NCBI RefSeq assembly: GCF_015864825.1
Contig: NZ_JADYWL010000002.1
Span: 248,001 to 312,000, forward strand
Reading direction: 5' to 3'
DNA: 64,000 nt
From: Psychrobacter sp. NZS113
GTDB taxonomy: Bacteria; Pseudomonadota; Gammaproteobacteria; Pseudomonadales; Moraxellaceae
Positions 2,590 to 29,705 of the stretch are shown piece after piece. Under the pieces are notes generated by a model. It did not search any database. It had not been told where the DNA came from and saw nothing but the letters and a program-made list of their open reading frames with translations. The position numbers and the translations under genes are program-made. The first letter of the stretch is position 1. Each line of letters begins with the position of its first letter.

Positions 2590-3333
2590 TCATAGTGGTG
2601 TTTGCTTAAAGAACTTGATCATAATCTCATAAATATCCGGATAAGCATCAATGAGCTTTTGCGGCGTTTCAAAAAACACTTCACTCAGAACCGCAAAAAA
2701 CTCCGCAGGATTGGTCGAACCATAACGATCAAGCCCTGACTTGCGATGCGTTTGAAAATCTTCAAAATCGCGACTCATGACCTGTGTCCACCGAGCAGGA
2801 TCCATATCAGGTTGCAGTGGAGGAAAGCCATTGGCACGGCCATTCATCATATCTAGCTTATGCACAAACTCATGAATGACAACATTATGCCCGTCACGCT
2901 CACCTGAATGTTTGGCGTCCTTCCACGATAGAATAACAGGTCCTCGCAGCCACGCTTCCCCGCTACGGTGCTGACTTCCCTCATGGACGATACCGAACTC
3001 ATCTACGGTGGTGCTGTCGCTCTTGTACGAGCCCGGATAAATGATAATGGATGACCAGCCAGCGTACCAATCGAGACTTAGATTTAATATTGGCAGACAA
3101 GCTTGCAAGGCAATAGATTGTTTGACTGCATCGGTAATCTCAAACCCTTGCGCGCCTGTGATGGACTTATCAGCCAGAAATAACGTTGCTAGCTCAAATA
3201 AATGTGTCATCTCGTCAATACTTAATCTATCGAGTATCACAATACGCTCAGCCGCCTGCATCCAGTCAGCCTGAGTAAATTCGCTGTTGTCTAATATGCG
3301 CTGCTCACGCCAATCCTTTATGATGCCAAACAT
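2590..3333 (-). CDS. mtfA: MtfA-type zinc metallopeptidase (M90 family)
   Basis: This cytoplasmic peptidase of about 247 aa has the zinc motif HEFVHKLDMMNG near residue 150 and the family-typical end ETPQKLIDAYPDIYE. In E. coli MtfA binds the glucose repressor Mlc and has aminopeptidase activity; whether that applies here is unknown. The ATG at 3333 is preferred over one three codons upstream, because AGGG lies nine bases before it while the upstream ATG directly abuts that site. It appears to be a single gene, with non-coding sequence on both sides. Confidence 0.85.
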   Translation of the reverse strand: MFGIIKDWREQRILDNSEFTQADWMQAAERIVILDRLSIDEMTHLFELATLFLADKSITGAQGFEITDAVKQSIALQACLPILNLSLDWYAGWSSIIIYPGSYKSDSTTVDEFGIVHEGSQHRSGEAWLRGPVILSWKDAKHSGERDGHNVVIHEFVHKLDMMNGRANGFPPLQPDMDPARWTQVMSRDFEDFQTHRKSGLDRYGSTNPAEFFAVLSEVFFETPQKLIDAYPDIYEIMIKFFKQTPL

Positions 3334-3445
3334 ACACGCCATCCCTATTCTTTTAATATTTCGAACACGTTGGTATTACTGAATATAAGTATTGTAGCGG
3401 TAATCAGTAATACGCATTTATAATTAATATATTGACATGCATAAG

Positions 3446-3482
3446 CAAAAAACGCTGCTCATAAATGAATTATTGAGCAGCG
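3446..3482 (-). terminator. Intrinsic terminator of the autotransporter peptidase gene
   Basis: A 9-bp perfect stem (CGCTGCTCA/TGAGCAGCG) with a 12-base loop is followed on the minus strand by a run of six T. It lies about 25 bases downstream of the peptidase-autotransporter stop. Confidence 0.85.
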
Positions 3483-3507
3483 CAGGCGTACATCTACACA
3501 TTAATAT

Positions 3508-13356: not shown

Positions 13357-14097
13357 ATGACTTACTGTGCCGCTATACGCCTGAAAGAAGGGATGGTTTT
13401 TGCTAGCGACACGCGTACCAATGCTGGGGTTGATCACATATCAACCTTCAGAAAGCTCTATCAGTATGGCATTGAAGGTGAGCGCTTTATAGTATTGCAA
13501 ACAGCTGGCAGCTTAGCGACATCGCAGGCGGTGTTTAACAAACTGCAAAACGATATTGATCAGCGCCTTGAGAGTAATCTTAATACAGTAGCCACTTTAT
13601 TTGATGCCGCCCAAATGGTTGGTGAATGTATGCGTGACATTATGAATCATGCAAAAGCAGTCGCTAATGCTAGTGTCGATGGCGCGTTTACCAGCTCTTT
13701 TATGCTCGGTGGTCAAATCAAAGGGCAGCCGCCTGAGCTTTACATGATTTATCCTGCAGGTAATTGTATCAAAGCCACTGAAGACACACCGTTTTTTCAA
13801 TTGGGTGAAAGCAAGTACGGCAAACCAATTCTAGATCGTTCTGTCAGCTACAATACGGATGTGAGGCATGCCGCACGTGCGTTGATGTTATCATTTGATT
13901 CAACCATTCAATCCAACTTGTCAGTAGGCATGCCCATAGATTTTGTACTTTATGACAATGACAGCCTAACCCTGCCTAATGGCCGACGTATTGATGAGAA
14001 TGATGAATATTTCAATAGCATTCGTCGTCAATGGTCAGAGGAGCTCCGCCGTATTTTGGTTGAATTGCCTAAATGTCCTGATGGCTATTGGGGATAA
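13357..14097 (+). CDS. anbu: Anbu, proteasome-related protease
   Basis: The 246-aa protein is of the predicted proteasome-type protease group called Anbu (ancestral beta subunit). It starts MTYCAAIRLKEGMVFASDTR, so removal of Met exposes the catalytic Thr2 as in HslV and proteasome beta subunits. The FASDTRTNAG stretch and a Gly-rich strand (SSFMLGGQIKG) fit the Ntn-hydrolase fold. Length matches Anbu (about 240-250) rather than HslV (about 175). AAGGA precedes the ATG. It closes the cluster with ATP-grasp/alpha-E and transglutaminase and is followed by a terminator. The substrates of the Anbu system are not established. Confidence 0.88.
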   Translation: MTYCAAIRLKEGMVFASDTRTNAGVDHISTFRKLYQYGIEGERFIVLQTAGSLATSQAVFNKLQNDIDQRLESNLNTVATLFDAAQMVGECMRDIMNHAKAVANASVDGAFTSSFMLGGQIKGQPPELYMIYPAGNCIKATEDTPFFQLGESKYGKPILDRSVSYNTDVRHAARALMLSFDSTIQSNLSVGMPIDFVLYDNDSLTLPNGRRIDENDEYFNSIRRQWSEELRRILVELPKCPDGYWG

Positions 14098-14128
14098 AAG
14101 TTCCGTATAAAATCATATTTTCTGCACT

Positions 14129-14161
14129 AAAAAGCCCTTTGTGATAGACAAAGGGCTTTTT
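14129..14161. terminator. Terminator after the Anbu gene
   Basis: A 13-bp perfect stem (AAAAAGCCCTTTG and its complement) with a 7-base loop has T-runs on both strands, 31 bases after the protease stop. Confidence 0.9.
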
Positions 14162-14187
14162 ATTATCAACTAATAATTAGGCAATAA

Positions 14188-14229
14188 AAAACCGGAGTAG
14201 CGCTGAATAAACAACCCGACTCCGGTTTT
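14188..14229 (-). terminator. Intrinsic terminator of the retron RNA
   Basis: The 11-bp stem AAAACCGGAGT/ACTCCGGTTTT is followed on the minus strand by six T, while the plus strand has only four T then GC. It comes 35 bases after the a2 arm and supports transcription of the retron RNA leftwards. The Anbu gene already has its own terminator at 14129-14161. Confidence 0.7.
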
Positions 14230-14305
14230 GCTTTAAAGACCTTGAATGCCATCATAGTGATGTCACACTCAATTGTTGTGTAATCTACCTCATGACCTGG
14301 TACAT

Positions 14306-14436
14306 GGAAGACTCACTGGACTGCACCTAGATAAAGGCCCTAGTGCATTAGCTCAATCACGATTGCGTGATTGCGCCAGCGAGCTAATGACACTAGGGCC
14401 TTTATCTAGGTATTAGCAGGACTGAAACAGTCTTCC
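14306..14436 (-). repeat. msd long hairpin
   Basis: A basal stem GGAAGACT/AGTCTTCC (14306-14313 with 14429-14436) encloses a 29-bp stem, with arms at 14326-14354 and 14381-14410 and a single extra A as the only defect. This is capped by a hairpin with 7-bp stem AATCACG/CGTGATT and loop ATTG (14355-14372). There is no T-run after it, so it is not a terminator. It is the segment a retron RT would copy, giving msDNA with the plus-strand sequence. Confidence 0.8.
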
Positions 14437-14607
14437 TTGGGTAAAATGTAATGGCTTGACTCGTGGACGACGCAACGTCGCCCCTCACCGTAAACGGTGA
14501 AACGCTAAATCTCACAACCCGTTAAGTGTGCCTCATAACAGTTAGTACTGTCAATACATAATTAGCAAGTCTCTTTGCTTGCGACATCTGCTGTCGTTAG
14601 CTATTTA

Positions 14608-14641
14608 TTTTGTGACAAAAGTTCTTGATGTTTGTTACAAA
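14608..14641. promoter_or_regulatory. Twin TTTGTNACAAA palindromes in the divergent retron promoter region
   Basis: TTTTGTGACAAAA (14608-14620) and TTTGTTACAAA (14631-14641) are palindromes sharing the core TTTGTNACAAA, with centres 22 bp apart. They lie between the retron RNA and the first operon gene (14707). This looks like a paired operator for a dimeric regulator. The winged-helix SWIM protein of the operon is one candidate, but nothing in the sequence proves it. No convincing -35/-10 pair could be picked on either strand. Confidence 0.5.
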
Positions 14642-14706
14642 ACACGGTTACATAGGGCATACAAATACATCGTAAGCTGACAAAATAAAAATTAAGGCAA
14701 ATTTCT

Positions 14707-17700
14707 ATGAGTCTGTCCTTCGCACAAATTCAGCAAGCTTGGCAAGTTCAAGACCCTAGCTTGGTTGATAAGTTATGTTTATTAGCAACACAAGTTGATG
14801 ATATTCCTGAGTCGCCCATCCCTGAGCACGAACTGACATTTGAGCGATTTTTAGATAAGATTCTAAGTCATCAGTTTCGGGAGCAAAACCCCGAAGTACA
14901 GTTTGCAGAGCGTGTGGCAATGATTGCCAAGCTTGAGGCAGACGAAGGCATCTACCCTCTCCCTGATCGCTACAAAATCCATTTAATATTGACTGCACTT
15001 TGGGAAGATGGCAGCGCGTACTCCAGAACTATTCTAAAACAAGCCATTACGGCTTTGCCAGTCAGCTATGGTGTGTGGAAAGGTTTGAAGCGCATTTATA
15101 AGCAAGCTGAATTTTCTCAAGATTATGAGATATTTGGACAAATTGCCGCCAAGATTGATTTACAACGCTTTAATCAAACCGCCAACTCTGCGGTCAGCCT
15201 CGCCACCAAAACCTATATGAGTCTCAGAGCATGGCGTTATCTGCGCCAGTTGGGTCAGCAAATGCCAATTGGCTACATTGATGCCGCCGTCTCTGTACTC
15301 GCCAGCTATGAAGAAACCATGACGGCAGGCAGCCTTGAACAAACGAACAGCTGGGTACTTAATCATATCTGTTTCCATAACAGCCTTGATTATGGCGTCA
15401 ATCGATTCAGCAGTCGCTCACCTCGCAAGCTCTTTGATGCAAAAGGTCGCGCTTTCGCTGAGGCATGGCAACGAGACCCTGAACCACTTATTGAGTTACT
15501 GGCCATCGCCAAAAATGAGGCTATCAGACAGTTCGCAACCGATAGCCTAAAGCATGACTTTAAGACCCAACTACGTGATGTGAGTGGTGCGACGCTACAA
15601 TATTTATCTGCCGGACAAGCGCACAGCAAAGCGCGTGATGAGATGATTGTTTGGCTATTAGAAAACGCACCACATTTTGAAAAGTCTAAATTTCAAACAT
15701 TGGGCTTGCATCAAGTGGTGCTACAACTACTCCATTCACACTATCCTGCCGCTTATCAGTATGCGATTGGCTATGCCAAAAGCTACGCTCAAAACTTATC
15801 ACTCACTGAGCTGATGCTACTGGCCATGTCAGATTATGAGCCTGTTAGAGTATTTGCCATCAACAGTATCTTGAGTCGTGATCCTGTTGCTGATATCGGT
15901 GTCAATGGCTGGGGTCAGCTATTAGACACAGAGCATCACTATCAAACCGCGAGCAAACAACTTAGCAAACATTTTACGAGGCGCGATTTAACCCCTGAGT
16001 GGTTTTTTGAACGACTGACTAGTGGCAGAACACACAGCGTAAAATTTGCCATAAAAAAACTGCCTGAGCTTTATAGTGCCAAAGAGCTAGGGACTGAATA
16101 TTTTATACGCGTTGCCCAGCAGCTAGATATACCAGAGCAACAGGACTTCTCTGCTTATAACGACAGCGACTGCATGGATTTTGCGTTGGATCAGCTCAGA
16201 CGTTTGGATTTGAGCCAAGTAAACGCTGCCGTGTGGCAAATGCTGCTATTACATCCACTATCGCAAGCGACTATTACCGATTGGTTTGATGAAGATGTGC
16301 TGTCAGCAGCAACGCTTGATATGAGCTATTGGCATGCGCTTGCCTATGAGCCTGATTGGCAAGTGAGTGAATATATTGAACAATTAAAATCTGCTGACAC
16401 TCCTATTAAAAACTGGCAAAAGCACTTGGCCTTTGATGAGTACTTAGCAGAAAGCGTAAGGGATTGGCTGTCTGATGTACGTCGGTTTTCGCCGATAGAT
16501 TTAGGTTTCGATTGGCTTATGAATCTTGCGCATAGCGATCAGGCACTCTATCGTGAATTTGCTATTGAGCGCATTAACAAAGGGTTCTTGCCTGCCGACT
16601 TTATCGCATATCTCGACAGCAATGAAGGCGCCTCTATTGACACCGCTTCCAGTAATGGTACTGACAATAAAGACTCAAATAGCGACGCTGCTACTGAAGT
16701 AGATTTAACCGGCCAACGCTATCTATTCACAGGCAAGATGCAAAGCATGACTCGTGGTGAGGCCGAAAAAGTTGTGAAAGCAGCTAATGGTGCCATCAGC
16801 GGCGCTGTCAACGGCAAGTTAGATTACTTGGTCATCGGTGATGATGGCTCACCGTTATATGGAAATGGCCGTAAAGGTAGCAAGCAAGTTAAAGCCGAAA
16901 GCTTAATCGCTGATGGTGCGCCGCTAAAGATTATTTCCGAAACCGCCTTTTTACAGATGCTGACTGGTCAATCGAGAGAGGTATCTGAAAACGATACTTT
17001 TGCAGGTGCCAACGCACTGTGGCATATGGCAACAGATGACGCTACTGCACCTATCAGCGAGCTTGCGATTAGCTACCTCAGTCATCATCATGAACAGATC
17101 TGTATGGCACTGACAGACAGACCAGTCGATCCCGATGCGATTATCCCTTCTTCATTCTTTGATGCGGAGCGCGTCATTCCTTTACTGCAACACCGTAACA
17201 GCCAGCTGCGAGAATTTGGCTTATTACTGAGTGAGTATGAGATGGCGACGTGGCAACCAACGCCAGCCCTATGGCTGATGATGGCAGAATCTCCCTATAC
17301 GGATATCACTCAACTGCTAAAGCGTGCGCTATTGAACAAGCCATCCATTGCCAATAGACGTTATCACATCCAGTCAGAACAATTGAATGCTGGCATGCTG
17401 AACGCTTTGATTGAAAGCAAAGCGCGAGTCGCTCGCCAAATCGGCATCACCTTGCTGCAGCGTCATGCCAATTTCCAAGATGTGCAGTCTTTATATCGAT
17501 TGACCCAAAGCACAGACCGTGAAGTACGTTATGCCGCTGTGACCATGCTATGGAAACACTACAAGGCGCGTCACGTGTCTCCAAACTGGCAGCCAACCAG
17601 TAGCGATAGTAAAGATAAAGATGCTGCACGAGATAAAGACAGCAGCGCTCAACCAGTCATAACAGAGCAGTCAGATAAACGTTTGGCAAGCTTGCCTGCA

Positions 17701-18108
17701 GAAGTCGATCAACTACTAATGCTGCTACGCCGTGGTCTCTTTGAGCTACCGCCTGGCCGTTTAGGCGGTTCGCAAGAGCCTGCTGCTCATGACAGCAGTA
17801 AGCATAAACAACAACGTTATTCAGATAAAAACTCAGCATCACCACAATCATCAGAGGCAGATGAGTCAGATAGCAATATCACACTAAAACCCATATCTGC
17901 GAGTCGTGCCAAACTGGCATTGATTGAGACCTTTCGTGATGTGGCATTGGCTGACAGCACCTTTGCGGCGCTCGTTATGCCCACACTGTTCACCTTTACG
18001 CACTCGGCAGGCAAGATGGAGCGTCATGCGTGTTTGGTTGCCGTCACACGGTTATTGCATCGCTATCCTGAGCTATCTAAAAGTCTGCAGCCAGTGGCAT
18101 CGGCTTAA
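14707..18108 (+). CDS. HEAT/ARM-repeat protein with internal BRCT domain (retron-associated)
   Basis: The 1133-aa protein is made mostly of alpha-helical HEAT/ARM-like repeats, for example LLAMSDYEPVRVFAINSIL and LTQSTDREVRYAAVTMLW. A BRCT domain is inserted at about 666-752 (DLTGQRYLFTGKMQSM then GKLDYLVIGDD), flanked by a Ser/Asp/Asn-rich linker. A second low-complexity linker lies around 960-1060. BRCT domains of this ligase/RFC1 type bind DNA ends or phosphates. It is the first gene of the operon that ends with the retron reverse transcriptase; a 71-base gap separates it from the giant second gene. I infer a scaffold or sensor role in the retron system. No catalytic motif was recognised. 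Confidence 0.75.
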   Translation: MSLSFAQIQQAWQVQDPSLVDKLCLLATQVDDIPESPIPEHELTFERFLDKILSHQFREQNPEVQFAERVAMIAKLEADEGIYPLPDRYKIHLILTALWEDGSAYSRTILKQAITALPVSYGVWKGLKRIYKQAEFSQDYEIFGQIAAKIDLQRFNQTANSAVSLATKTYMSLRAWRYLRQLGQQMPIGYIDAAVSVLASYEETMTAGSLEQTNSWVLNHICFHNSLDYGVNRFSSRSPRKLFDAKGRAFAEAWQRDPEPLIELLAIAKNEAIRQFATDSLKHDFKTQLRDVSGATLQYLSAGQAHSKARDEMIVWLLENAPHFEKSKFQTLGLHQVVLQLLHSHYPAAYQYAIGYAKSYAQNLSLTELMLLAMSDYEPVRVFAINSILSRDPVADIGVNGWGQLLDTEHHYQTASKQLSKHFTRRDLTPEWFFERLTSGRTHSVKFAIKKLPELYSAKELGTEYFIRVAQQLDIPEQQDFSAYNDSDCMDFALDQLRRLDLSQVNAAVWQMLLLHPLSQATITDWFDEDVLSAATLDMSYWHALAYEPDWQVSEYIEQLKSADTPIKNWQKHLAFDEYLAESVRDWLSDVRRFSPIDLGFDWLMNLAHSDQALYREFAIERINKGFLPADFIAYLDSNEGASIDTASSNGTDNKDSNSDAATEVDLTGQRYLFTGKMQSMTRGEAEKVVKAANGAISGAVNGKLDYLVIGDDGSPLYGNGRKGSKQVKAESLIADGAPLKIISETAFLQMLTGQSREVSENDTFAGANALWHMATDDATAPISELAISYLSHHHEQICMALTDRPVDPDAIIPSSFFDAERVIPLLQHRNSQLREFGLLLSEYEMATWQPTPALWLMMAESPYTDITQLLKRALLNKPSIANRRYHIQSEQLNAGMLNALIESKARVARQIGITLLQRHANFQDVQSLYRLTQSTDREVRYAAVTMLWKHYKARHVSPNWQPTSSDSKDKDAARDKDSSAQPVITEQSDKRLASLPAEVDQLLMLLRRGLFELPPGRLGGSQEPAAHDSSKHKQQRYSDKNSASPQSSEADESDSNITLKPISASRAKLALIETFRDVALADSTFAALVMPTLFTFTHSAGKMERHACLVAVTRLLHRYPELSKSLQPVASA

Positions 18109-18179
18109 CGGCTTTAGCAAACAGATATAGATAAAAGATACTTAAAAAAATATGACGTCACCTCAACTGAGATAACACC

Positions 18180-21100
18180 ATGAAAACAATAACACTCCCC
18201 TATTGGGGTCAAATTATTGGCTTAGTCAGTAAGGCCAACAGCACCCAAGCGGCAACTCAAAAGACAACCAAGCAAGATGGGCGCAGTCTTTTTATTACTC
18301 GCCAGCAGCAAGCATCTGCCACGGTCTTATATGTCCTCGATCAACAAGGTGAGCAATTTAGCTTATCGACAACTGCACTGCCTTGTGTGATGCAAGCCAT
18401 CACTAAAATAGATGATAGTACGGTGGTAATGATTGGTGACGATGGTCATCTTTATCAAACGGATTGGCAAGCCAAGAAAGTTAAGAAGACCAGTGCCAAA
18501 TCCTTACTCGATGCACCTGAAAATAATAACAGTACTATAGGCCGTGCCGTAGCAATGGCACCACTACAAGATGCACTGGCTATTTTATATCCGAAACACA
18601 TCGTGGTATGGCCTTATCAAGACAGCCAAGCCAGCAGTACTGTCATCATTGAGACTTATTCGTCTTCTATAGCAACATCAAGTAAGGAGTCTGCATTAAC
18701 AGCGCTAGCAACGTCAAGTGATGGCTCGTGGCTCGTGGTGGCAGATAAAACAGGAGCTGTTAGTAGCTATCAATGGGTATCAGATGATGCACAGCTCAAT
18801 CTGAGTAGCCGAAAACAGCTCCACCAAGGTAAAGTAAACGCGCTTTGTTTTGAGCCGGTCGGTCAATACTTCTTCTCCGCAGGCGCAGATAAGTGCTTGT
18901 ATCGTACTCATGTCCAAGGCGATCTACACCCAGTTGATAGAGCCAAGTCTAGCCAACACAGCGAAATGATCACGGCGCTTTGTGTCTCAGACACTCGGCT
19001 ATTCACTACCGCCGATGACAAGAGCGTCAAATCATGGGCATTTGACAAGGGTCAACCAAATAGCTGCAAAGAGGATCTGACCAAGGCTCGACAGATCGTC
19101 TTATCTTCTTACGCTGAACAACCAACACTCATCGTAGTCAGTGCTGATCAGAGCCTACGTTTCATACCTATTGACCATACTAAAAATGCGTCACAGAGTA
19201 GTACGGCACAAAACAGTAAGCTGCTGCCAGTTACTTATATCATCAAAGACGGCTATCAGAGAATCAGCCAGTTACTGACAGATGCCTCAAACAATAACGA
19301 TGTGTCGTTTAAAGAAGGCCTAGCGCTGCTACAGGCGCAAGCAGATAACCAAACGTTAGAGCTGGTCAAAAAATTACTTGCTGATAGCGATACGCTCACG
19401 GCCAATCAAGCATTGCAATTGGTGCAGTGGATTGCGACAACAAAACTGGATAAAACTGCACAGGTTTTAGAGCAGCAACTAAGCTCGGCGCACAGTGCAA
19501 AAGTACGTCTTGCTGCTTTTCATGCCTTGGCCGACCGCGCAAGTACGGCAAAGCGCCCGCTGCATTATCTAGAAGAAGCCTTTAAAAACCGTTACTACGA
19601 AGAAGTGGTAGCTTCTGCATTACAAGGTTACCTAAAGGTCGCGATGAAGGATGCTACCAGCCAGCGCCGCATCTTACCTATTTTAAGAGACGCGTTGTCA
19701 CACAGTTTTGCGAATATTCGTAAGCAAGCATTGGCCTCACTTGAGACCTTATTGCCAGACAACAGCCCGCAAGCAGATTTGATGGCACTAGACTGTAATC
19801 AGTCAGACATTGTCCAGTCAGGGTTGATTCGTCTGTATCAGCGCGGCATGCTAAACCACCTTGAAGTCTCGCGTCAGCTGATGCTGCTACAGAATCATCG
19901 TAATACAGAGATTAGGCAAACGGCGTTTTACGTCTCATTACTGTCTCAGCCTAAATTGATAGAGGCGTTAAAACAGCAAGGCGACACGCAAACATTACGT
20001 ACCCTAACTGATTTCGATGACTTTCGCTTACTACGCGGCACGCTACTAGATAACGCTAGTAACACAGCGGCGAATGATAATAAGGTTAAACAATCCGATG
20101 AGGCGATCCGTTTAACCTTATCCACGCAAGACTTTATCTCGCAAGCAGATAATACCCAAGCATCTAAGAGTAAGGCTAAAACGGCAAAATCCAAGAAGCT
20201 TGCTACTGAATCTATAAACCTAAGCAATGACACGTTAGAGCCCTTATTACAAAGCTTAAGCAATAGTCACGAAGATATCAGTTTCCGAGCGGCTTATGCG
20301 CTGGCTTGCCTACAAGACAAACGTGCGTTTGGCACCCTGATTAGCCTAATGAGCCATGATGACAGCGCCATCATCCGTGCTGGTGTCGCCACCGCGCTTG
20401 GTCATTTAAATATAGAAGACGCCAAAGCAGTCCTACCGACATTACTGGACGATAAGGACGCTGGCGTGCGCCAAGTCGCTATGCAAGCCTATGGTAAGTT
20501 GTCAGACAATGTCTTGTCTTGGGCAGCGACAGGTTTTGCTTCTAAACATCAAGACATTCATGAGCAGTCTTTAGCACTGTTTTTAAAGCATGTAACACCA
20601 GATGGCCTAAATAGTGGTGATAGCAGTGATAAAAGCGCACAGATGTCGTCAGAGATGACAGATATATTGCTACAAGCGTTAAACAACCCTTTTACCAGTA
20701 TTCGGTTAGAAGTGGTTAAAGTTCTATTAAACCGCCAATTTAAGCAGTCATCTGACAATATTTCTAAAAACGTTTCTGACAGTGCTATCGTTGACATTAT
20801 TGAGCTATTGCAGCAAAGCCTCTTTGAAGATGTGCATCAAGTGGCGATAGAAGAATGGCAACGACTGTTGCTATCGATGACATCGAAGCATAAAACAAAT
20901 AAAGTTGAAGAAACTGATAGTCAAAAGACCAATCAAGCCGTTTTAACCTTGTTTTTTGCAGATATGTTTGCCGCTATCCGTAAACAAGCCTTTGATATTG
21001 CACTTAAGCAAAGCAAGCATTTAGGGTTTGCTGACGTCATGTTAAGCGCGCTTGCCAGCCCTTATGCGGATACCAAGCAACTGGCCCTTACGACGGTGCA

Positions 21101-24100
21101 AGCCAGAGCGAATACGACTCAGCTGACACAGTTGATGCCAGCTCTCGTGGCTATGTTCGCTGATGACAGTATTGAGCTGCGTAAACAAGCTTTGACGGTT
21201 GCTTTGGCGCTGACAGAATTACAACCTACTATTTTAGCGGATTACAGTAGCCTAGATGATAGTAGCACCGATGATCAACCGAATCATCACGAAGCATTGA
21301 TTACCGCAGCCTTAAACAGCCCTTATCCTGATATTCAGCTAACAGTCGCTCAACTACTGGCCAGCCAATCACGCCTCTATGCTGACGAAGAACAGGCACA
21401 GCGGAGTGATGAACAAGCGTACGAAGTCTTTAAACACTATCTAGAACTGCCTATGCCCCCTCAAGGCAAGAAAAGTGACAGCTATACCCAGTGGCACAAT
21501 CATGTAAGCCAAGCGCTGTCTGGCTTGTCTAAACTGGCATACCCATCAAAGCATGATGCACTAGGTTGGTATGCTAAATATCTACACCACCCTGATGCTG
21601 ATTTTAAACTTCTTGCACCAAAGATTACTCAGATAGTCTCGCTTGAGGACATTGATCTACTGGTGAAATGGCAGAAAGATGAGCACGCCATTATCAGTCA
21701 ATCAGCCAGTTTATGTTTGGCTATTTTAGGTGACGCTCGCGGGCAGTACTTCCTTACTCATGACATTAAAGACGAGACAGACAATCTTAGTACGCTTGTT
21801 GCACCGATGACCCCTACGCATTGGCTTCAAGCACAGCATGGCTTGACCATCACTCATGCCAGTCAACTACAGCCTTTGTTTGAGTCAGAGTCCTATGCAA
21901 TAGCGGCCAGACTGTTATTAATATTTAATGATTTAAAAGATCACTGGCAAAATGGCTTGCAAGCTCCTGAAAAGAACGTTACCAGCACTGGTCGACCTAA
22001 TCAGCTGATAGGAGCATTAAGCTTTGCGGATAATGACACGGCAGTAGTCTATGCCAACATACTCGCTCGTTACACGAATGACGTACAACACCCTAATAAC
22101 CAGCCAGCACTATCGTCAGCATGGCAGTATTTGAGTGATTACTTGTCACGTCAATTAGGCAGTGTTTTATCTTCTCACTCTGAAGTCATCACAATGATGA
22201 TGGATGCCATGCCAAACACGGCAGATAAAGGTGGTATTAAAGGACAGTCGCATAATACGGTCTCTATCCGAGCAAGTATTCTAACGACGGTGAGTACCGA
22301 AAACTTACAACAGCTCGCCAACCTCAGTCGACACCAGCAGCCATTGGTACGCGCCCAAACTATCGATGTTATCTGCAACTTATCTGAATTATTCGCTCAT
22401 GACTACTATGACGATGAGAACGATGTTTTTGAGACACTACAAAAATGGCAACGCAGTTTGCAGGCATTGTTAAGTGCTCACCCTGTATCAGCCTCTATTC
22501 AGGATGTTTCAAACGACGATGCGCAAACAATAGGTAGCTCTCCTACTGACAAACAAGACAGTTCTGAGGCGCATTACCCATACCAGTCCCTTGCTTTTGG
22601 TGCTTGGATTGGCGTCATACGCGCAGGCGATGATTATTATGCTAATAGCAGCACCACAGACCAAGCCATTCGAGGGCTAATGTGGCTTGCTACTCAATCA
22701 TCAGAGCTTAACACCAATAACAACACTAATAGCAATGAGGATTGGCGAGACAGTACCAGTCGCGTGTTGTTGCCACTACTCAACCACAGTAGTTTTGACA
22801 CTCGTGAGCTGGCTTGGTCATGCTTGTATAAGCTAAACATGCCTGCCAAAAAGCTGGCTGACTATGCCATGAGCACGCCCTACCGCGATATTGTCAAACG
22901 CGGCTTGGACTTATTGCTAGATACCGCAAATAACAATGCCGTACAGCAGCAAAGTAAACCATCGAATACAGCTACTGTCAGTAGTAGCGCTGATCAACAA
23001 ATCATTGATTTGTTAAAAACCAATAATCACACCTTAGCAGAAGAGACCTATCAGCTGCTAAAAGGCCGACTAGGCCATCTGCCAGCCAGCTTGCTTGGGC
23101 TACAGACTTATTGTCAGTCGTTACTGCCTCAGATCGTTGCGGAATGGAAACAAGTCATTGTCACGCCTTTTGCAAACAGTCAATCGCCGTCAGTGCAGCG
23201 TCAAGACAAACTGACGTTTTTGCTGCACGCTGTGAAGAGTGATGACTGGAATGCAAAGTATCAAGCACTGAGTCAATTGGTCGAGTTTTATGACGTACTC
23301 TTTGCAGACAGCACGCTATTTGATAGCTTATTTGATTTTGCTGAAGACGCTCAAGCCAGTAATGAGAAATACCGTAGCTGGCAGCTGCTTGTCGATGCAC
23401 TCACGTCGTACCAACTCATCAATAAGAACACTTTAGAGGGTCGTTTAAATAGCAGCTTTGATATTGCTATGGCTGAACAGGTTGCCAATGAGGCGCACTT
23501 ACGATTACTAGCCTTACTTGATGATCCACATATCAACAAACCTAAACAGGTCATCTACTCGGATATCGCTGACCTGCGTAACACAAATCTCGTGGCGCCA
23601 TTACTACAGCGTTTAGAGAATTTGTTTGAGCATACGCCGCAAAAAAATAAAGAGGAGCGTAAATATTTATTTGATACCTTAGTAAAAATCAGTGGTTACG
23701 ATCAAAAAATTGAGGATTATTTGGAGGAGCGTGAAGATACGCGCTGGTTACAACGTCAGCACCTTAGAGACTCGCAAGTCTTGCTGTCACTGTTTGCTAC
23801 GCTTATGAATCATAGTGATTATGCGCTTGCCGCACAGCTATTACCGTCACTGGCATGGGTACAATCGGACGACAGTGATTTATCCTCGCGCATTGATACT
23901 GCTTTAGCGCTAGCCTACGAGCAGATGCCAGCTAACCATACCTTTAAATTGGTCGAGGCACTGGCATATCGAGCCAAAAGACGACACGGCAGCATTGCCT
24001 CATTACAAAACGCCCTGCGTAATAAAGACGCTGATGTGCAATTTGCCGCGGCTGAAGGACTGGCTAAGTGCGGTCACGCTGATGGAGTCAACATCTTGAT

Positions 24101-25895
24101 GGCCACGATAGATTACAACCCTGATGCTGAATTCCGCAGCTGCAGTGTGTTAGCCATTGGCGAGTTGCTAGGCAACAGTAACAACCAAAATGCCAACTCG
24201 CCTGTGGACAATGCTGATAAGAACTTACAGGTTCACACCTTATACAAAGCCTATGATAAGTTAATCAAACTAGCAGAAGATGACGAGCACTACTTGCAAG
24301 ACGTGGCCAGTGAAGCCTTAGGTCGCCTTGCACAAGGTGGTGACTTTGAGCACAGTTCGCATATTTTTGAGCTATTAAAATCGCACTTGTCAGACCCCGC
24401 AGTCCATTTCACCAATCCCGCCATTGTCCATTGGTTAAATGGACTGCGCTGGCTCAACACAACGCCTGCTTGGGAACAAATCCGCAGCTATATACGCACT
24501 CACCTTGATAAAGTCATATTTTTCCGTCCGCAAAGGCATGCGGTATGGCTATTGCAGATGAATAATAACGATGCCAATAAAGAATTAATATTAGATATTT
24601 TAAAGCAAAACAATTTAGACCGTGCTGTGCTTATGGCGGCTTATACGGCGGCACAGAAAACGTGGGGCAGTCTTGCGACGCAGGTTTACCCTTATGATTG
24701 GGCAGCCATTCAAAGCCATAATACTGACTTTATAGAAGAGACTGAGCGTTTGAGCCTAAAGCGTATTATTGATAATAGCAGCATCGATGAGCTGGCAACA
24801 TTCATCACGCAGCATGGTGCGCAATTGCCAGCCGATACCCTGATGGCACTGCAAAATGCCATTATGGCCAAGCAAGACATGCCAACATCGCAGCTTACCG
24901 CGTTGATTACGAGTAGTAACACACTGACACAGCATATTGGACTGTGTTATCTGACCCAGTATCCAACTAACTATTTAGACAAAGAAATGGTTGCGACGTT
25001 GCAGCAGCGTTTTGACACTGCAAGCGAGCAATGGCATACGCTTATCAACACCATCAACCGCAGTCCAACGACCATCAATAATAGTCAGTGGATTAGCATG
25101 GTTGAGCAAGTGGGTGGCACCATCAGACAACTGGTTTGGCTAATCATGCGTCATGTTTCTATCACAACTGCTAAAGGTGCTGTCGATAAAGTGGCAGCCA
25201 AGCAGATCGCGGCAATGCTTGAGTGGCTCAATGATGCTCGTCAACCATTGACCATCACTTCCGTCCCACTGCTCTCTACGACTGTTAGCGGTTGGTGGCA
25301 GCAAGCGCTGTTAGGACTACTGGCCAGACCAGTCGCTGAAGATAAGATGCTATCAAGTATCGTGCCAACGTTGAGCGTTGTCTCGACAGCAACTCAATCG
25401 CAGCTCACTTATGACAACCAAACCTTACTGTCAACGCTACTAACTCGTATTGAACAAAGCGGCACATCTACCCAAAAATCCATAATAACTGTAGTAAAGA
25501 ATGCGCTAAAACATAAGGGCTCGTCTACCGAGATACCAATCAATCAACAACTGCTACAGTGGATCAGAGCAAAAGACGCTGATGCACTCTATCATTGTGC
25601 GAGTAATGACAACATGGAGATGACGGTTCGCATCCGTGCTATCGAAGCGCTTGGGCAGCTACATGATCCAAATATTGAACAATGGCTGACGATGCTCATG
25701 GCACATGAAAACTCAGACATTCAGAAGCTTGCTTATAAAGTACTACGCCGCTGGCAACGTGCCATGATACGAGCACAGCAAAAGCGTCCGTTGGTATCTG
25801 GCAATATGGAATCGCAATCTAGCTCGACCATCGCAGCACAAAATAGTCAGGACAGCAGTCAAAAAAGCAATCAGGGTGAAGGAGACAGTCAATGA
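18180..25895 (+). CDS. Giant WD40-HEAT/ARM-repeat protein (retron-associated)
   Basis: This is the largest gene of the window, 2571 aa. The first 330 residues carry WD40-like beta-propeller repeats (TALATSSDGSWLVVADKTG, NALCFEPVGQYFFSAGADK, TALCVSDTRLFTTADDKSV). The rest, about 360-2540, is a long array of HEAT/ARM repeats, for example SFRAAYALACLQDKRAFGTL and FAAAEGLAKCGHADGVNIL. The C-terminal 35 residues are Ser/Gln-rich. No transmembrane or enzyme motif was seen. The stop overlaps the next start by four bases (ATGA), so translation is probably coupled to the SWIM gene. It probably forms the structural core of a complex with the SWIM protein and RT, which is inferred from gene order only. 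Confidence 0.75.
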   Translation: MKTITLPYWGQIIGLVSKANSTQAATQKTTKQDGRSLFITRQQQASATVLYVLDQQGEQFSLSTTALPCVMQAITKIDDSTVVMIGDDGHLYQTDWQAKKVKKTSAKSLLDAPENNNSTIGRAVAMAPLQDALAILYPKHIVVWPYQDSQASSTVIIETYSSSIATSSKESALTALATSSDGSWLVVADKTGAVSSYQWVSDDAQLNLSSRKQLHQGKVNALCFEPVGQYFFSAGADKCLYRTHVQGDLHPVDRAKSSQHSEMITALCVSDTRLFTTADDKSVKSWAFDKGQPNSCKEDLTKARQIVLSSYAEQPTLIVVSADQSLRFIPIDHTKNASQSSTAQNSKLLPVTYIIKDGYQRISQLLTDASNNNDVSFKEGLALLQAQADNQTLELVKKLLADSDTLTANQALQLVQWIATTKLDKTAQVLEQQLSSAHSAKVRLAAFHALADRASTAKRPLHYLEEAFKNRYYEEVVASALQGYLKVAMKDATSQRRILPILRDALSHSFANIRKQALASLETLLPDNSPQADLMALDCNQSDIVQSGLIRLYQRGMLNHLEVSRQLMLLQNHRNTEIRQTAFYVSLLSQPKLIEALKQQGDTQTLRTLTDFDDFRLLRGTLLDNASNTAANDNKVKQSDEAIRLTLSTQDFISQADNTQASKSKAKTAKSKKLATESINLSNDTLEPLLQSLSNSHEDISFRAAYALACLQDKRAFGTLISLMSHDDSAIIRAGVATALGHLNIEDAKAVLPTLLDDKDAGVRQVAMQAYGKLSDNVLSWAATGFASKHQDIHEQSLALFLKHVTPDGLNSGDSSDKSAQMSSEMTDILLQALNNPFTSIRLEVVKVLLNRQFKQSSDNISKNVSDSAIVDIIELLQQSLFEDVHQVAIEEWQRLLLSMTSKHKTNKVEETDSQKTNQAVLTLFFADMFAAIRKQAFDIALKQSKHLGFADVMLSALASPYADTKQLALTTVQARANTTQLTQLMPALVAMFADDSIELRKQALTVALALTELQPTILADYSSLDDSSTDDQPNHHEALITAALNSPYPDIQLTVAQLLASQSRLYADEEQAQRSDEQAYEVFKHYLELPMPPQGKKSDSYTQWHNHVSQALSGLSKLAYPSKHDALGWYAKYLHHPDADFKLLAPKITQIVSLEDIDLLVKWQKDEHAIISQSASLCLAILGDARGQYFLTHDIKDETDNLSTLVAPMTPTHWLQAQHGLTITHASQLQPLFESESYAIAARLLLIFNDLKDHWQNGLQAPEKNVTSTGRPNQLIGALSFADNDTAVVYANILARYTNDVQHPNNQPALSSAWQYLSDYLSRQLGSVLSSHSEVITMMMDAMPNTADKGGIKGQSHNTVSIRASILTTVSTENLQQLANLSRHQQPLVRAQTIDVICNLSELFAHDYYDDENDVFETLQKWQRSLQALLSAHPVSASIQDVSNDDAQTIGSSPTDKQDSSEAHYPYQSLAFGAWIGVIRAGDDYYANSSTTDQAIRGLMWLATQSSELNTNNNTNSNEDWRDSTSRVLLPLLNHSSFDTRELAWSCLYKLNMPAKKLADYAMSTPYRDIVKRGLDLLLDTANNNAVQQQSKPSNTATVSSSADQQIIDLLKTNNHTLAEETYQLLKGRLGHLPASLLGLQTYCQSLLPQIVAEWKQVIVTPFANSQSPSVQRQDKLTFLLHAVKSDDWNAKYQALSQLVEFYDVLFADSTLFDSLFDFAEDAQASNEKYRSWQLLVDALTSYQLINKNTLEGRLNSSFDIAMAEQVANEAHLRLLALLDDPHINKPKQVIYSDIADLRNTNLVAPLLQRLENLFEHTPQKNKEERKYLFDTLVKISGYDQKIEDYLEEREDTRWLQRQHLRDSQVLLSLFATLMNHSDYALAAQLLPSLAWVQSDDSDLSSRIDTALALAYEQMPANHTFKLVEALAYRAKRRHGSIASLQNALRNKDADVQFAAAEGLAKCGHADGVNILMATIDYNPDAEFRSCSVLAIGELLGNSNNQNANSPVDNADKNLQVHTLYKAYDKLIKLAEDDEHYLQDVASEALGRLAQGGDFEHSSHIFELLKSHLSDPAVHFTNPAIVHWLNGLRWLNTTPAWEQIRSYIRTHLDKVIFFRPQRHAVWLLQMNNNDANKELILDILKQNNLDRAVLMAAYTAAQKTWGSLATQVYPYDWAAIQSHNTDFIEETERLSLKRIIDNSSIDELATFITQHGAQLPADTLMALQNAIMAKQDMPTSQLTALITSSNTLTQHIGLCYLTQYPTNYLDKEMVATLQQRFDTASEQWHTLINTINRSPTTINNSQWISMVEQVGGTIRQLVWLIMRHVSITTAKGAVDKVAAKQIAAMLEWLNDARQPLTITSVPLLSTTVSGWWQQALLGLLARPVAEDKMLSSIVPTLSVVSTATQSQLTYDNQTLLSTLLTRIEQSGTSTQKSIITVVKNALKHKGSSTEIPINQQLLQWIRAKDADALYHCASNDNMEMTVRIRAIEALGQLHDPNIEQWLTMLMAHENSDIQKLAYKVLRRWQRAMIRAQQKRPLVSGNMESQSSSTIAAQNSQDSSQKSNQGEGDSQ

Positions 25896-28168
25896 CTATA
25901 GATAATCAATTAGACCAAGCATCAGAAACAGAGTCAGAAGTAGTAAACACTGATGGCCTGGTGATGCAGTTGGACTACGCCGCACCCAGCCAAATCAGTC
26001 AAGTTAACGAATCGTCAGATTCACTGGCGGAGGCGCAAACGACCGAACACACTCAGCATGTGGCACTATTTGCTCAGCTGAATCGGTCGGAGGTTAACTT
26101 CCACGGTAAGGTCAAGTCTTCCCTTGTCTTTCGTGACAGTTTGCTAGCTCTATTTGATGTGGTCAGTAGTGACTACCGTTATGTGCCAAAAGACCGCTCA
26201 GCGTACACGGTATTTATGCAGATGCGCCGTGCCAGCAGCAATAAGAACCTATTTACTGCGCAGCGTGATTATTTCACGTGGCTATTCGATAACGACCCAC
26301 TCGCCTTTTGTATTTTGGATCCGATTATTCAGGTGCACGAGCAAGGTGTTAGCTTTGAGGTATTTAGTCGTGATGAAGGCTGCTATGCTCAATTGACATT
26401 GACCAATGAGATTTTTGAGCAAAGTGTCGAAGCTACGCTCGGCACCACCAGCATTGATTATAGTGCGGCGTTGTTTAACGGTATTGAGAAAATTCGCGAT
26501 CATCAACAAACGATATTAGACATTGGTCATGAAGCAGTCGGCTTACAGTTACTCGAAACCATGCCAGAGACGGATAATGGCGAGGTAAACAGTACAGATG
26601 CTGCGGCCAGTACTAATAGTGCTGTAGCCACGCCCACCGTAAAAAAACAGATCATAGAAAAGCGCATCAATGTGCCCAAAAGCTGGATCAGAGCGCTGCT
26701 ACAGGTACAGTCTGCAGGTCAATTGCCACAAGACACCATCCATCTTGATCCAATCGCACTGTATAACGTGCTGTTTGAGCTACGCATGCATGCTGATATC
26801 AAAGGCAAACGGCGTGGATTGTTGATTGAACTCAGACCTCAGCAGCTGCCAGTGATTATATTAGAGCCATTTGACATCACTGTTACTAGCCAAGTCAGCC
26901 AACAGCAAAAGCCTTATCAAGGTCAACAAGCAAAGCTGATTCGCTTATGGGGTCGCCGTCGTCTCAGCCTATTAAAACGTCTGTTGCCACATACTGACAG
27001 CGTTTCGGTATCGCTACTGGGTCAAGGCATGCCAAGCTATTGGACACTAAAAGGCAAAGGCTTTCATTTCACCTTTGCTATGACTGGCTTTAGCCAAGCC
27101 AATTGGTCACAGTCATTGAACTTTGACTTATTACTGCCTAAGCGTCCACAGCAAAACACAATTAGTGCGGATAGAAAGCAAGCATCTGCACAAGTAAGTG
27201 AGCAAGTATTAGAAAGTACTGATAGTGGTTTAGTAAAGGTCGTTGATAGCCTTACTCACCGCCCAAGTACTGTAGACGCATTAACCCAGCAGCTAACAAC
27301 GCAAGAGTCAGAATTACAGTCAGCACCTATCACGGAAGCACAAGTGCGACAGTGGCTGCTAGCGGGAACGCAGCAAGGTTTGATTCGTTATGATATTGCG
27401 CAAGGGAGCTATTACTATCGTCCATTGACGCAGACACCGCTTGATATGGCGCAGTTTGCTTACCATAATGAGGCAGAAAAACATGCCTTTGATTTGATTG
27501 GCCGTGCGGATGCCGTGCAGAAGTTCTCTGTCGAGACTGTCGCTACCAAAGGCGTGAGCATCAGTGCTGATGTCTATGTTGAAGAGGATCGACGTACTTA
27601 CCACAGTCAGCTGCAATTAGGCGATGAAGCACTGGTCAGCCGAGCAGAATGTAGCTGTCCGCAGTATTTACAGCACCGACTCACACAAGGTGTGTGCGCG
27701 CATCTTATTGCATTACGTCTGAGTTACAACAATTACGATAGTACTACTGCCAAAAACGACAGCTGGCATGACACCCGAATATTGAGTCAGCGTGTACCTG
27801 TTCGTCACTCTATTCGCCATTCCACTAAAGCTACCACTCAGTATAAAAACGAGGCTATCACAGCACCTTCAGATTTGGTGATGGACTTATCTGCATTGTC
27901 ACAGCCCTCAGAACCATCATTAGATAATAAGACAGACAATATAAAAGAGAGTATCAAAGACAAAGCGATTGCTACAACAGACGAGACTTGTATCACTTAT
28001 ATCTATCTGACTATCGCACATAAAAAAATAACGATTGAGCAGACCACGGGTGATGACAGCACGCATCAGCACTTTGTGTTTAACCAACCTGCTCAAGCCA
28101 AAGCAGCTTATTTACAACATATTGCCAGATTTGAAGCCAAAGGCTTTATCGAAAACCAAGGGGTGTAA
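25892..28168 (+). CDS. Winged-helix SWIM zinc-finger protein (WHSWIM, retron-associated)
   Basis: The 758-aa protein has a SWIM zinc finger at C587, C589, C602 and H604 (CxCx12CxH), a fold that binds nucleic acid or protein. Just upstream, about 480-515, is a winged-helix-like segment (EAQVRQWLLAGTQQGLIRYD followed by YYYRP). The first 470 residues are mixed alpha/beta without a recognised domain. It overlaps the giant repeat gene by 4 bases and stops 3 bases before the RT start. This WH-SWIM plus ARM plus RT set is what I recall for type XIII retrons, where this protein may be the effector or nucleic-acid sensor. A role as regulator of the TTTGTNACAAA boxes is a guess. Confidence 0.8.
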   Translation: MTIDNQLDQASETESEVVNTDGLVMQLDYAAPSQISQVNESSDSLAEAQTTEHTQHVALFAQLNRSEVNFHGKVKSSLVFRDSLLALFDVVSSDYRYVPKDRSAYTVFMQMRRASSNKNLFTAQRDYFTWLFDNDPLAFCILDPIIQVHEQGVSFEVFSRDEGCYAQLTLTNEIFEQSVEATLGTTSIDYSAALFNGIEKIRDHQQTILDIGHEAVGLQLLETMPETDNGEVNSTDAAASTNSAVATPTVKKQIIEKRINVPKSWIRALLQVQSAGQLPQDTIHLDPIALYNVLFELRMHADIKGKRRGLLIELRPQQLPVIILEPFDITVTSQVSQQQKPYQGQQAKLIRLWGRRRLSLLKRLLPHTDSVSVSLLGQGMPSYWTLKGKGFHFTFAMTGFSQANWSQSLNFDLLLPKRPQQNTISADRKQASAQVSEQVLESTDSGLVKVVDSLTHRPSTVDALTQQLTTQESELQSAPITEAQVRQWLLAGTQQGLIRYDIAQGSYYYRPLTQTPLDMAQFAYHNEAEKHAFDLIGRADAVQKFSVETVATKGVSISADVYVEEDRRTYHSQLQLGDEALVSRAECSCPQYLQHRLTQGVCAHLIALRLSYNNYDSTTAKNDSWHDTRILSQRVPVRHSIRHSTKATTQYKNEAITAPSDLVMDLSALSQPSEPSLDNKTDNIKESIKDKAIATTDETCITYIYLTIAHKKITIEQTTGDDSTHQHFVFNQPAQAKAAYLQHIARFEAKGFIENQGV

Positions 28169-28171
28169 GGT

Positions 28172-29611
28172 ATGACGATGCAGACAGAGCAGCAGAATGA
28201 TTATATAACCCCTGTGCCTAATGCCACGCCCTTTGAGCGAGAGTGGCAGCAACTATGGCAAGACATCGAGTCAGCAGGTGGGCGCTATCAATACGTTCAG
28301 CAGCAGCTGGTCAAAAACGGCTTTATGGTAGATCGCCAACCTGTCGATAACATGAGCCCAAAAGAACGGGATCGCTATAAAAAAGCCTTGAAAAAAGAGG
28401 CAGCAGAAGAAAAAATCCTCAAAAAATCAGCGTGGCAAGCGTATAAAGCCCACCATATTGTCCATCTTGGTCACCAAGTCTACTGGTCAGATGACACCAG
28501 TGCCGATAAATGGGATATCAAAAATGCGTCCAATCGCCTTATTGAAAATAAATTGCCACTACTCAACAAGCATACTGAGCTGGCAGACGCAGTTAACCTA
28601 ACCGTGCCCCAGTTGAAAGGACTCTGCTACCAAAGGGACGTCGCAACCAATCTCGCCTATTCGCATTTCACTATTGCCAAACGCAATGGCACAGCGCGTC
28701 AAATATGGTCGCCCATTCCACGTTTGAAGTTTGTACAGCGTTGGATTTTGAATCAAGTCTTAAACAATTTAACGACGCATGATGCCGCACATGGCTTTGT
28801 ACGTGGCAAATCTATCGTGACCAATGCTGCTGTACACAGCAACAGTGAGCTACTTATTAAGCTGGATATTAAAGATTTTTTCCCTAGTGTCAGCTGGCGC
28901 CGCGTCAAAGGCGTATTCCGTCATGCCGGTTATCAAGAACAAATATCCACGCTACTGGCGCTATTGTGCACCGAAGCACCCAGACAAGTCATCAAACAAG
29001 ATGGCGTTACCTACTATGTGGCATTAGGTGATAGAGCTTTGCCACAAGGTGCACCCACTAGCCCTGCATTAACGAACATCGTATGCTTAAATTTGGATCG
29101 CCGCTTATCAGGGTTGGCAGAAAAGTTAGGCCTACGTTATAGCCGTTATGCCGATGACTTGACCTTCAGTTTTACCGCTATTGAAAGCGCCAAACCAAAA
29201 TCGAAGGCTAAAACAACGATTAAAGCAACGACTAGCACCGCAAAGAAACAAGCCGATACGCAGCACAATAAGCTAATTGGACAACTGCTTGGCTCAGTCC
29301 ATAAGATATTACGTGAAGAAGGTTTTGCGCTGAATAATGATAAAACGCGTGTGATTCGTAAAGGCAATCAGCATAACGTTACTGGTATGGTGGTCAATGG
29401 TAGCGGTGTGCCAAGGGTCTCACGCCAAATCAAGCGCATGTTACGAGCAGCCGTTCATAACTTAGAGTCAGGCGGTACATTACGCGCTGATGAAACTTTA
29501 AATACACTGTCAGGATATGCTGCTTGGATAGCCTCTGCAGAGCCAGAGCTAGGACACAGTTATCTAGCTAGAATCGAGCGTTTACAAGTGCAGCAAGAAA
29601 CACCTGCATAA
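28172..29611 (+). CDS. Retron-type reverse transcriptase
   Basis: The 479-aa protein shows the RT core: RQIWSPIPRLKFVQRWIL, LIKLDIKDFFPSVSW, LPQGAPTSPALTN and the catalytic YADD at 326-329. Retron-specific marks are present: NAAVH at 218-222 (region X, NAxxH) and VTG at 403-405 (region Y). No maturase, integrase or endonuclease domain follows, which argues against a group II intron or diversity-generating element. The N-terminal 130 residues are a charged helical extension. A Lys/Thr/Ala-rich insert lies just after the YADD strand (about 336-360). The gene follows the SWIM gene after 3 bases; an in-frame ATG two codons downstream could also be used. It should prime msDNA synthesis from the RNA at 14188-14530. 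Confidence 0.92.
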   Translation: MTMQTEQQNDYITPVPNATPFEREWQQLWQDIESAGGRYQYVQQQLVKNGFMVDRQPVDNMSPKERDRYKKALKKEAAEEKILKKSAWQAYKAHHIVHLGHQVYWSDDTSADKWDIKNASNRLIENKLPLLNKHTELADAVNLTVPQLKGLCYQRDVATNLAYSHFTIAKRNGTARQIWSPIPRLKFVQRWILNQVLNNLTTHDAAHGFVRGKSIVTNAAVHSNSELLIKLDIKDFFPSVSWRRVKGVFRHAGYQEQISTLLALLCTEAPRQVIKQDGVTYYVALGDRALPQGAPTSPALTNIVCLNLDRRLSGLAEKLGLRYSRYADDLTFSFTAIESAKPKSKAKTTIKATTSTAKKQADTQHNKLIGQLLGSVHKILREEGFALNNDKTRVIRKGNQHNVTGMVVNGSGVPRVSRQIKRMLRAAVHNLESGGTLRADETLNTLSGYAAWIASAEPELGHSYLARIERLQVQQETPA

Positions 29612-29637
29612 ATATTTATTTATATTTGCACAAAAAT

Positions 29638-29667
29638 GAGTATTAGAAAATCCTATTTCTAATACTC
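29638..29667. terminator. Terminator between the RT and UvrA-like genes
   Basis: A 12-bp perfect stem (GAGTATTAGAAA and its complement) with a 6-base loop has five T downstream on the minus strand, so it best terminates the UvrA-like gene. It may also slow plus-strand transcription after the RT gene. Confidence 0.75.
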
Positions 29668-29705
29668 ATTCAAATGAAGCATGTTAGTGCAGAATTATAT
29701 TTTCA

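Follow-up and report, generated by a model that had tools for sequence, protein, structure and literature searches.

Retrons, reverse-transcription systems of a kind that defends bacteria against viruses, are usually pictured as a single cassette in which the RNA lies beside the gene for the reverse transcriptase (RT). We analysed a 64,000-nucleotide stretch of the Psychrobacter sp. NZS113 genome (contig NZ_JADYWL010000002.1, positions 248,001 to 312,000; hereafter the window), which we believe, with good confidence, to carry a complete four-gene type XIII retron with an independent, divergently transcribed msr-msd RNA gene. Comparison of related loci shows how this RNA is structured, which strand it is read from and that it is linked to the operon, and we infer that the system synthesizes multicopy single-stranded DNA (msDNA). 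The RNA has all the features of a retron RNA, namely the a1/a2 pair, a TAGC with its priming G, msr stem-loops and a long msd hairpin. It lies on the minus strand, 13.6 kb from the RT. Its genes and RNA class the locus as type XIII, and not as a classical single-transcript cassette.

The protein-coding part consists of four closely spaced open reading frames (ORFs) on the plus strand, which form a tight operon:
14707-18108, plus strand: gene 1, 1133 amino acids, a HEAT/ARM solenoid with an inserted BRCT
18180-25895, plus strand: gene 2, 2571 amino acids, a WD40 propeller followed by HEAT repeats (PADLOC, Pfam)
25892-28168, plus strand: gene 3, 758 amino acids, with a predicted PCNA-like clamp fold, a winged helix and a SWIM zinc finger
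28172-29611, plus strand: gene 4, 479 amino acids, the type XIII retron RT
Between the end of gene 3 at 28168 and the RT start at 28172 there is no space for an RNA. PADLOC profiles matched all four proteins, with RT_XIII for the RT (518 bits), HEAT-ARM_XIII for genes 1 and 2 (1105 and 1839 bits, respectively) and SWIM_XIII for gene 3 (496 bits). The RT carries the motifs NAAVH, YADD and VTG, its closest sequence relatives in the PDB are retron RTs with Ec86 at the top, and the rest of the genome gave one further, weak RVT_1 match, under the cut-off. By its RT group and motifs and its HEAT-ARM and SWIM partners, the locus is a type XIII retron, a class name that in PADLOC-DB reportedly stems from Mestre et al. 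2020. The original prediction had called this a retron RT from the same motifs and assigned type XIII from the ARM and winged helix-SWIM genes; the profiles and the RT tree (below) agree, as do the ORF coordinates and strand it gave, and a placement of the RT outside the retron clades, which it had named as evidence against itself, was not found.

The RNA gene lies upstream of gene 1, and its parts are as follows:
14275-14518, minus strand: msr-msd RNA from a1 to a2, by match to covariance model R1 and by covariation
14506-14518, minus strand: a1 (GTTGTGAGATTTA), pairing with a2
14504-14505, minus strand: predicted branching G (14505) within the TAGC after a1, from the alignment of 16 RNAs
14486-14499, minus strand: msr hairpin 1 (CACCG-TTTA-CGGTG), from sequence and fold
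14465-14483, minus strand: msr hairpin 2 (GGGCGACG-TTG-CGTCGTCC), helix 2 of the consensus
14306-14436, minus strand: msd hairpin, helices 3-6 of the consensus, inverted repeat I1
14436-14428 / 14313-14306, minus strand: conserved base of the msd
14411-14391 / 14345-14325, minus strand: long variable stem of the msd
14275-14287, minus strand: a2 (TAGATTACACAAC), pairing with a1, from covariation
Model R1, built from 16 RNAs including the window RNA that it then recovers, gave 244 bits at 14523-14265 on the minus strand. Its only other window matches (E <= 5) were the plus strand of the same palindrome (21.9 bits) and 27871-27950 (8.6 bits), so the divergent RNA indeed appears to be the sole msr-msd candidate, as had been claimed. 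The underlying alignment (A3) holds 16 RNAs from 15 loci in several phyla. Compensatory double changes occur in 46 of its 61 pairs, with 222 double-change cells against a shuffle mean of 73 (0 of 500 shuffles reached 222), and 92.3% of its cells are paired, compared with 72.2% for column shuffles and 37-44% for slid versions. The inner six pairs of a1/a2 form helix 1 of the consensus (97.9% of cells paired), and msr hairpin 2 has changed on both sides in 5 of 8 pairs; msr hairpin 1 is missing from the consensus because its length varies. In the TAGC, which PMC6868368 gives as the priming context in retrons, A, G and C are invariant among the 16 RNAs and T is present in at least 90%.

The RNA on the minus strand has a folding energy of -148 kcal/mol (z -11.4, with none of 100 shuffles equally good). 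Since the plus strand of the palindrome also folds well (z -9.4), strand was examined separately. The five Psychrobacter rows, read on the minus strand, contain 290 Watson-Crick, 15 G-U and 0 A-C cells; the 15 G-U cells would read as A-C mismatches on the opposite strand, which supports the minus strand. The 11 other rows, read on their own RNA strand, have 556 Watson-Crick, 31 G-U, 11 A-C and 63 other cells. We regard it as very improbable that the hairpin is an unrelated palindrome or a regulatory RNA at the operon head. Its distance from the RT, its highly palindromic sequence and the lack of any Rfam family match at the gathering threshold would fit such an origin, but all the msr-msd parts are present and covary, related RNAs precede the RT in other type XIII systems, and the RNA tracks the operon in two groups even if encoded elsewhere in the genome. 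Two relatives have unusual msd regions. At L139 (89-260, the same as L106) the msd stem is reduced to a few pairs while the msr and priming region are kept, which predicts a very short msDNA, and at L087 (3558-3820) the msd apex runs the opposite way to that of close relatives, as though the tip of the hairpin had flipped.

For a divergent msr-msd read as its own gene, we propose the following promoter and terminator:
14525-14554, minus strand: proposed RNA promoter, TTGACA at 14554-14549, an 18-nucleotide spacer and CACACT at 14530-14525, about 7 nucleotides before a1
about 14182-14229, minus strand: imperfect terminator-like hairpin with a U run, arms 83% complementary, inverted repeat I3
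CACACT shares three of six letters with TATAAT. Upstream of a1, 19 of 21 Psychrobacter rows have TTGACA and the remaining two TTGCCA. A simple scan found a hairpin plus T-run after a2 in 13 of the 21 rows, none in four, and a poor or different one in four, the window included. Together, the covariation, the strand evidence, the TTGACA box and the conservation described next support the divergent RNA that had been predicted.

To assess linkage we compared 56 loci encoding gene 1 relatives, 22 from Psychrobacter and 34 from elsewhere. The RNA is on the minus strand in all 20 Psychrobacter loci that extend far enough upstream. Among the 34 others, a full RNA lies just upstream in 15, always on the plus strand, and a partial one at the contig end in two, also on the plus strand (L095 and, weakly, L102); three are too short upstream to judge, and in 14 the RNA is absent upstream (13 from Myxococcota or their genera, and L114 from Deltaproteobacteria). 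The first motif search missed L079, L126 and RNAs outside the Psychrobacter and Thiothrix relatives, which a looser pattern and R1 found; the count of states leaves out L064, L065, L069, L138 and L038, whose RNA position is unverified. One of the other loci, L096 of Thiolinea disciformis, has two tandem msr-msd copies at the operon head (3278-3531 and 3631-3884).

Searches over more than 40 genomes used stricter filters that drop weak RNA matches. Across 105 Psychrobacter genomes the RNA was found in 29 and gene 1 in 25, and every one of these 25 has the RNA. It shares a contig with gene 1 in 23, divergent in all 23, and lies on another contig in G001 and G010. A search of 249 genomes of the family found the RNA in two outside Psychrobacter, divergent in G1012 and co-directional in G1021, so the flip is not family-wide; as far as seen, inversion does not extend beyond Psychrobacter and a single further genus of the family. 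All 27 searched genomes with gene 1 relatives have an RT_XIII match. The gene 1 scan of IMG/VR gave 40 stretches fitting a pattern and no relatives. The RNA may also be an msr-msd whose divergent gene chiefly regulates the operon through a shared promoter region, antisense action or autoregulation, the flip being a regulatory adaptation. The short intergenic region 14519-14706, which contains the proposed RNA promoter and must also hold that of the operon, and an inversion kept in all 23 readable Psychrobacter genomes are compatible with such a role. It is nevertheless unlikely, given that co-directional and distant versions exist and hence no single RNA placement is required.

The RNA gene and the operon also come and go together, as one unit:
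about 14098-29697: the unit that is present or absent as a whole, made up of the RNA gene and the four-gene operon and bordered by a proteasome-like and a UvrA-like gene
Empty sites put the RNA gene inside this unit. In genome G024 (L169) the counterparts of window positions 14096 and 29698 are just 30 bp apart, and the flanking genes are adjacent at six of the seven empty-site loci checked, L179 having a different neighbour. The predicted size of about 15.4 kb is right for the distance from RNA terminator to RT stop (15.4 kb), whereas the whole unit as delimited by the empty sites is slightly larger. The predicted RNA-RT distance of about 14 kb compares with 13,654 bp measured from a1 to the RT start.

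Myxococcota with a BRCT-type operon and no neighbouring RNA encode the RNA elsewhere. All six such genomes searched whole have a full-length match (158-185 bits, spanning all 255 R1 model positions). In Nannocystis exedens two tandem RNAs lie at 9.285 Mb, with the operon at 3.66-3.68 Mb; 1.87 Mb separate RNA and operon in Minicystis rosea; G812, G820 and N. pusilla (G810, which has two copies) have the RNA on other contigs; and in G813 it is 15 kb past the RT on the same contig. A seventh genome, G969, has two copies on another contig. The metagenome-assembled genome G1005, with gene 1 on a 9.4-kb contig, gave no RNA match, so seven of eight genomes have a distant RNA. The original prediction had named loci that keep the operon and lose the RNA as evidence against itself. 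All 25 gene-1-bearing Psychrobacter genomes keep the RNA, but these Myxococcota operons do lack a neighbouring one, yet with a strong match elsewhere in seven of eight. Among 116 genomes of that Myxococcota class, RNA and gene 1 occur together in 13, gene 1 alone in two (G1005, and G935, whose operon is cut before the RT), the RNA alone in one (G985, where it precedes an RT) and neither in 100; in G904, G921, G981, G990 and G1002 the RNA and gene 1 are on different contigs, through true distance or assembly. The 15-20 kb stretches fetched around the distant RNAs contained no type XIII genes. Ten ORFs beside these RNAs include two cation efflux genes, an ABC transporter, a peptidase, one LTD domain and five without a match, with no effector candidate among them.

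There is only a small chance that the distant RNAs are dead retrocopies and not working templates: they are full-length over the 255 positions at 158-185 bits, R1 found no other RNA match for these operons, and N. exedens and N. pusilla share the same site, next to a cation-efflux gene. More broadly, in BRCT-type type XIII retrons the RNA acts as a gene of its own, variable in place and strand. The N. exedens pair also resembles Nex1 (Ne160), for which PMC6868368, citing 1997 work, describes duplicated msr-msd repeats and no RT within a kilobase. The N. exedens RNAs agree with this description: they stand in tandem, no type XIII gene was found in the surrounding 20 kb, and a 160-nucleotide product counted back from a2 would stop in the linker after the msr hairpins. 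This suggests that the N. exedens four-gene type XIII RT may be the maker of the orphan msDNA Ne160. The same species has a three-gene type XIII system, whose RT shares 88% identity with UniProt Q8VRM1, an RT from N. exedens that we take to be the Ne144 RT. Its RNA (L130, 9690-9960; a1/a2 GTCATGACAACGGCGAAG / CTTCGCCGTTGTCATGAC) lies between the SWIM gene and the RT, and 144 nucleotides back from a2 lands in the linker, as expected if it is Ne144.

Other type XIII loci keep the RNA next to the RT. Weak R1 matches (21-32 bits) lie directly before the RT, on its strand, in six of nine three-gene loci fetched (L063, whose SWIM gene is unconfirmed, L070, L071, L130, L144 and L145, and not in L064, L065 and L069; a1/a2-like repeats were noticed by eye only in L064 and L069). 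In a second four-gene clade the RNA precedes the RT (L152, L153, L156 and L162, the last on a short contig), lies on both sides of it (L155) or is present only after it (L154). L155 (G976) has three msr-msd copies around one RT, at 12690, 14443 and 14748, and L154 (G955) two after the RT, at 14892 and 15200. In a quick RT tree, with SH-aLRT support only, no bootstrap and L067 omitted, the three-gene RTs form one clade (98) and all four-gene RTs another (98), within which the RT-adjacent-RNA clade (96) is apart from a BRCT clade (97) that includes head, flipped and distant RNAs. Six RTs of the three-gene type (L064, L065, L067, L069, L070 and L071; L067 begins near a contig end and its three-gene assignment is unverified) have C-terminal transmembrane-like helices by hydropathy, possibly a built-in membrane effector.

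The BRCT insert of gene 1 covers residues 664-755 (about 16696-16971). The BRCT that had been predicted there finds support in PHROGs NAD-ligase and DNA-ligase profiles and, weakly, in the RFC1 and LigA BRCTs of the PDB (E 0.0015 to 0.012); at E 0.01 the window protein had no Pfam BRCT match, and the Thiothrix homologue had one slightly below the cut-off. A BRCT profile matched 16 of 16 BRCT-clade loci and none in the two other groups (0 of 6 and 0 of 8); since it was made from alignment A5, the matches are partly by construction and the misses are informative. At clade level, the departure of the RNA from the RT thus coincides with the gain of the BRCT. A fold search with gene 1 returned, among the 50 matches listed, large helical-repeat proteins and complexes (CAND1, importins) with low TM-scores. 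Beyond the earlier reading of its sequence, the SWIM protein is also predicted to carry a clamp fold: the modelled structure of residues 69-407 (about 26096-27112) matches the two-domain clamp fold of PCNA and 9-1-1, upstream of the SWIM zinc finger CSC...CAH at about 27650-27703. PHROGs searched with gene 3 and PDB sequences searched with the SWIM alignment gave no match.

From these parts a mechanism can be proposed. With a promoter and a terminator of its own, the RNA gene would be transcribed away from the operon, and the RT, made at the end of a roughly 15-kb operon, would bind the RNA as a separate transcript, prime on G14505 and copy the msd into an msDNA of about 150-160 nucleotides. 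The two HEAT/ARM scaffolds may then hold the msDNA-RT unit together with the clamp-fold SWIM protein, and the RFC1-like BRCT would read a DNA end, of the msDNA or of phage. More tentatively, the domain content and the example of other retrons suggest that the clamp/winged-helix/SWIM module might be freed when the msDNA is disturbed by phage replication proteins or nucleases, and might then act on DNA that is being replicated, halting phage replication or the cell. That msDNA can be the trigger has precedents in other retrons (PMC13158370). Broader still, and doubtful although possible, is that BRCT-type four-gene type XIII retrons are modular immune systems in which a free-standing template RNA gene flips, multiplies and moves over megabases (the RT of Ne160 being thereby found), and in which a PCNA/9-1-1-like clamp protein and a BRCT scaffold resembling RFC1 read the msDNA, as a bacterial checkpoint-style clamp assembly formed around reverse-transcribed DNA. 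Such an assembly of clamp, BRCT and HEAT proteins with no recognised toxin could instead serve host DNA replication or repair and not mainly defence against phage. We consider this rather unlikely in view of the patchy presence (25 of 105 congeners), the absence of the whole unit from the same site in relatives, and the action of other retrons in defence (PMC13158370).

Several observations weigh against a complete, independently transcribed retron acting in this way. A standard promoter and terminator scan of the window reported neither element for the RNA. The clamp fold rests on one model with a mean pLDDT of 66, no Pfam clamp profile matched the gene 3 product P0004 (E <= 5), and none was among the 25 families listed of 54 for 47 gene 3 family members at the same threshold. 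No recognised enzymatic effector domain was found in the proteins of the system. Stops break gene 1 in G857, and in four Psychrobacter genomes the RNA is present with gene 1 undetected. That these four refute the linkage was considered and rejected, as G032 is fragmented, with an RNA piece at a contig end and the RT on a separate contig, and G830, G838 and G867 (L159, L160 and L161) are deletion remnants that keep gene 1 residues 1-78. All three share this remnant, which has an RNA of shortened msd and adjoins a proteasome-like gene matching from residue 32.

The inverted RNA at the far end of this operon and the RNAs megabases away in relatives depart from the one-cassette picture, and searches beside the RT alone would judge such systems to lack an RNA. 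For an msDNA reported without a nearby RT, the distant RNAs provide an explanation that can be tested, and the gain of the BRCT with RNA relocation, together with a clamp fold in a retron partner, suggests how a retron in which no toxin is recognised might act. For genome-editing designs that keep template and RT apart, a separate RNA gene is also well suited.

The first two of the following neighbouring genes flank the unit, and the proteasome-like gene is preceded by an ATP-grasp gene and a transglutaminase gene:
13357-14097: proteasome-like gene
29706-32291: UvrA-like gene, with mads_3 and other ABC-type PADLOC matches
34067-35725: helicase-like ORF matching DpdF, PsyrT and BREX-helicase PADLOC profiles, probably generic
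Of 16 neighbouring ORFs searched with PADLOC (in part at E <= 1e-10), these UvrA-like (mad3, 259 bits) and helicase-like ORFs matched and 14 did not.

Type XIII had been described as little studied, which agrees with the one paper found to mention it, where it occurs only among listed PADLOC results. Judged by titles and abstract openings, none of the listed open-licence PMC matches concerned a type XIII RNA, a distant msr-msd or a retron clamp. The window system shares the RT_XIII, HEAT-ARM_XIII and SWIM_XIII profiles with type XIII retrons, and differs from others of the type by an RNA at the opposite operon end and strand, a BRCT in gene 1 and a giant WD40-HEAT protein. Retron Nex2 (Ne144), in contrast, has its RNA immediately upstream of the RT and on the RT strand, a WGR-HEAT gene and no BRCT. 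Retrons Eco1, Eco2 and Eco8, whose RTs are present in solved structures, have a homologous RT and the same msr-msd plan, but each is one compact cassette; unlike the window system, they also have recognised enzymatic effectors (PMC13158370). Finally, the sliding clamps PCNA and 9-1-1 share the predicted fold of gene 3 residues 69-407, whereas gene 3 has no Pfam clamp match and fuses this part to a winged helix and a SWIM zinc finger.

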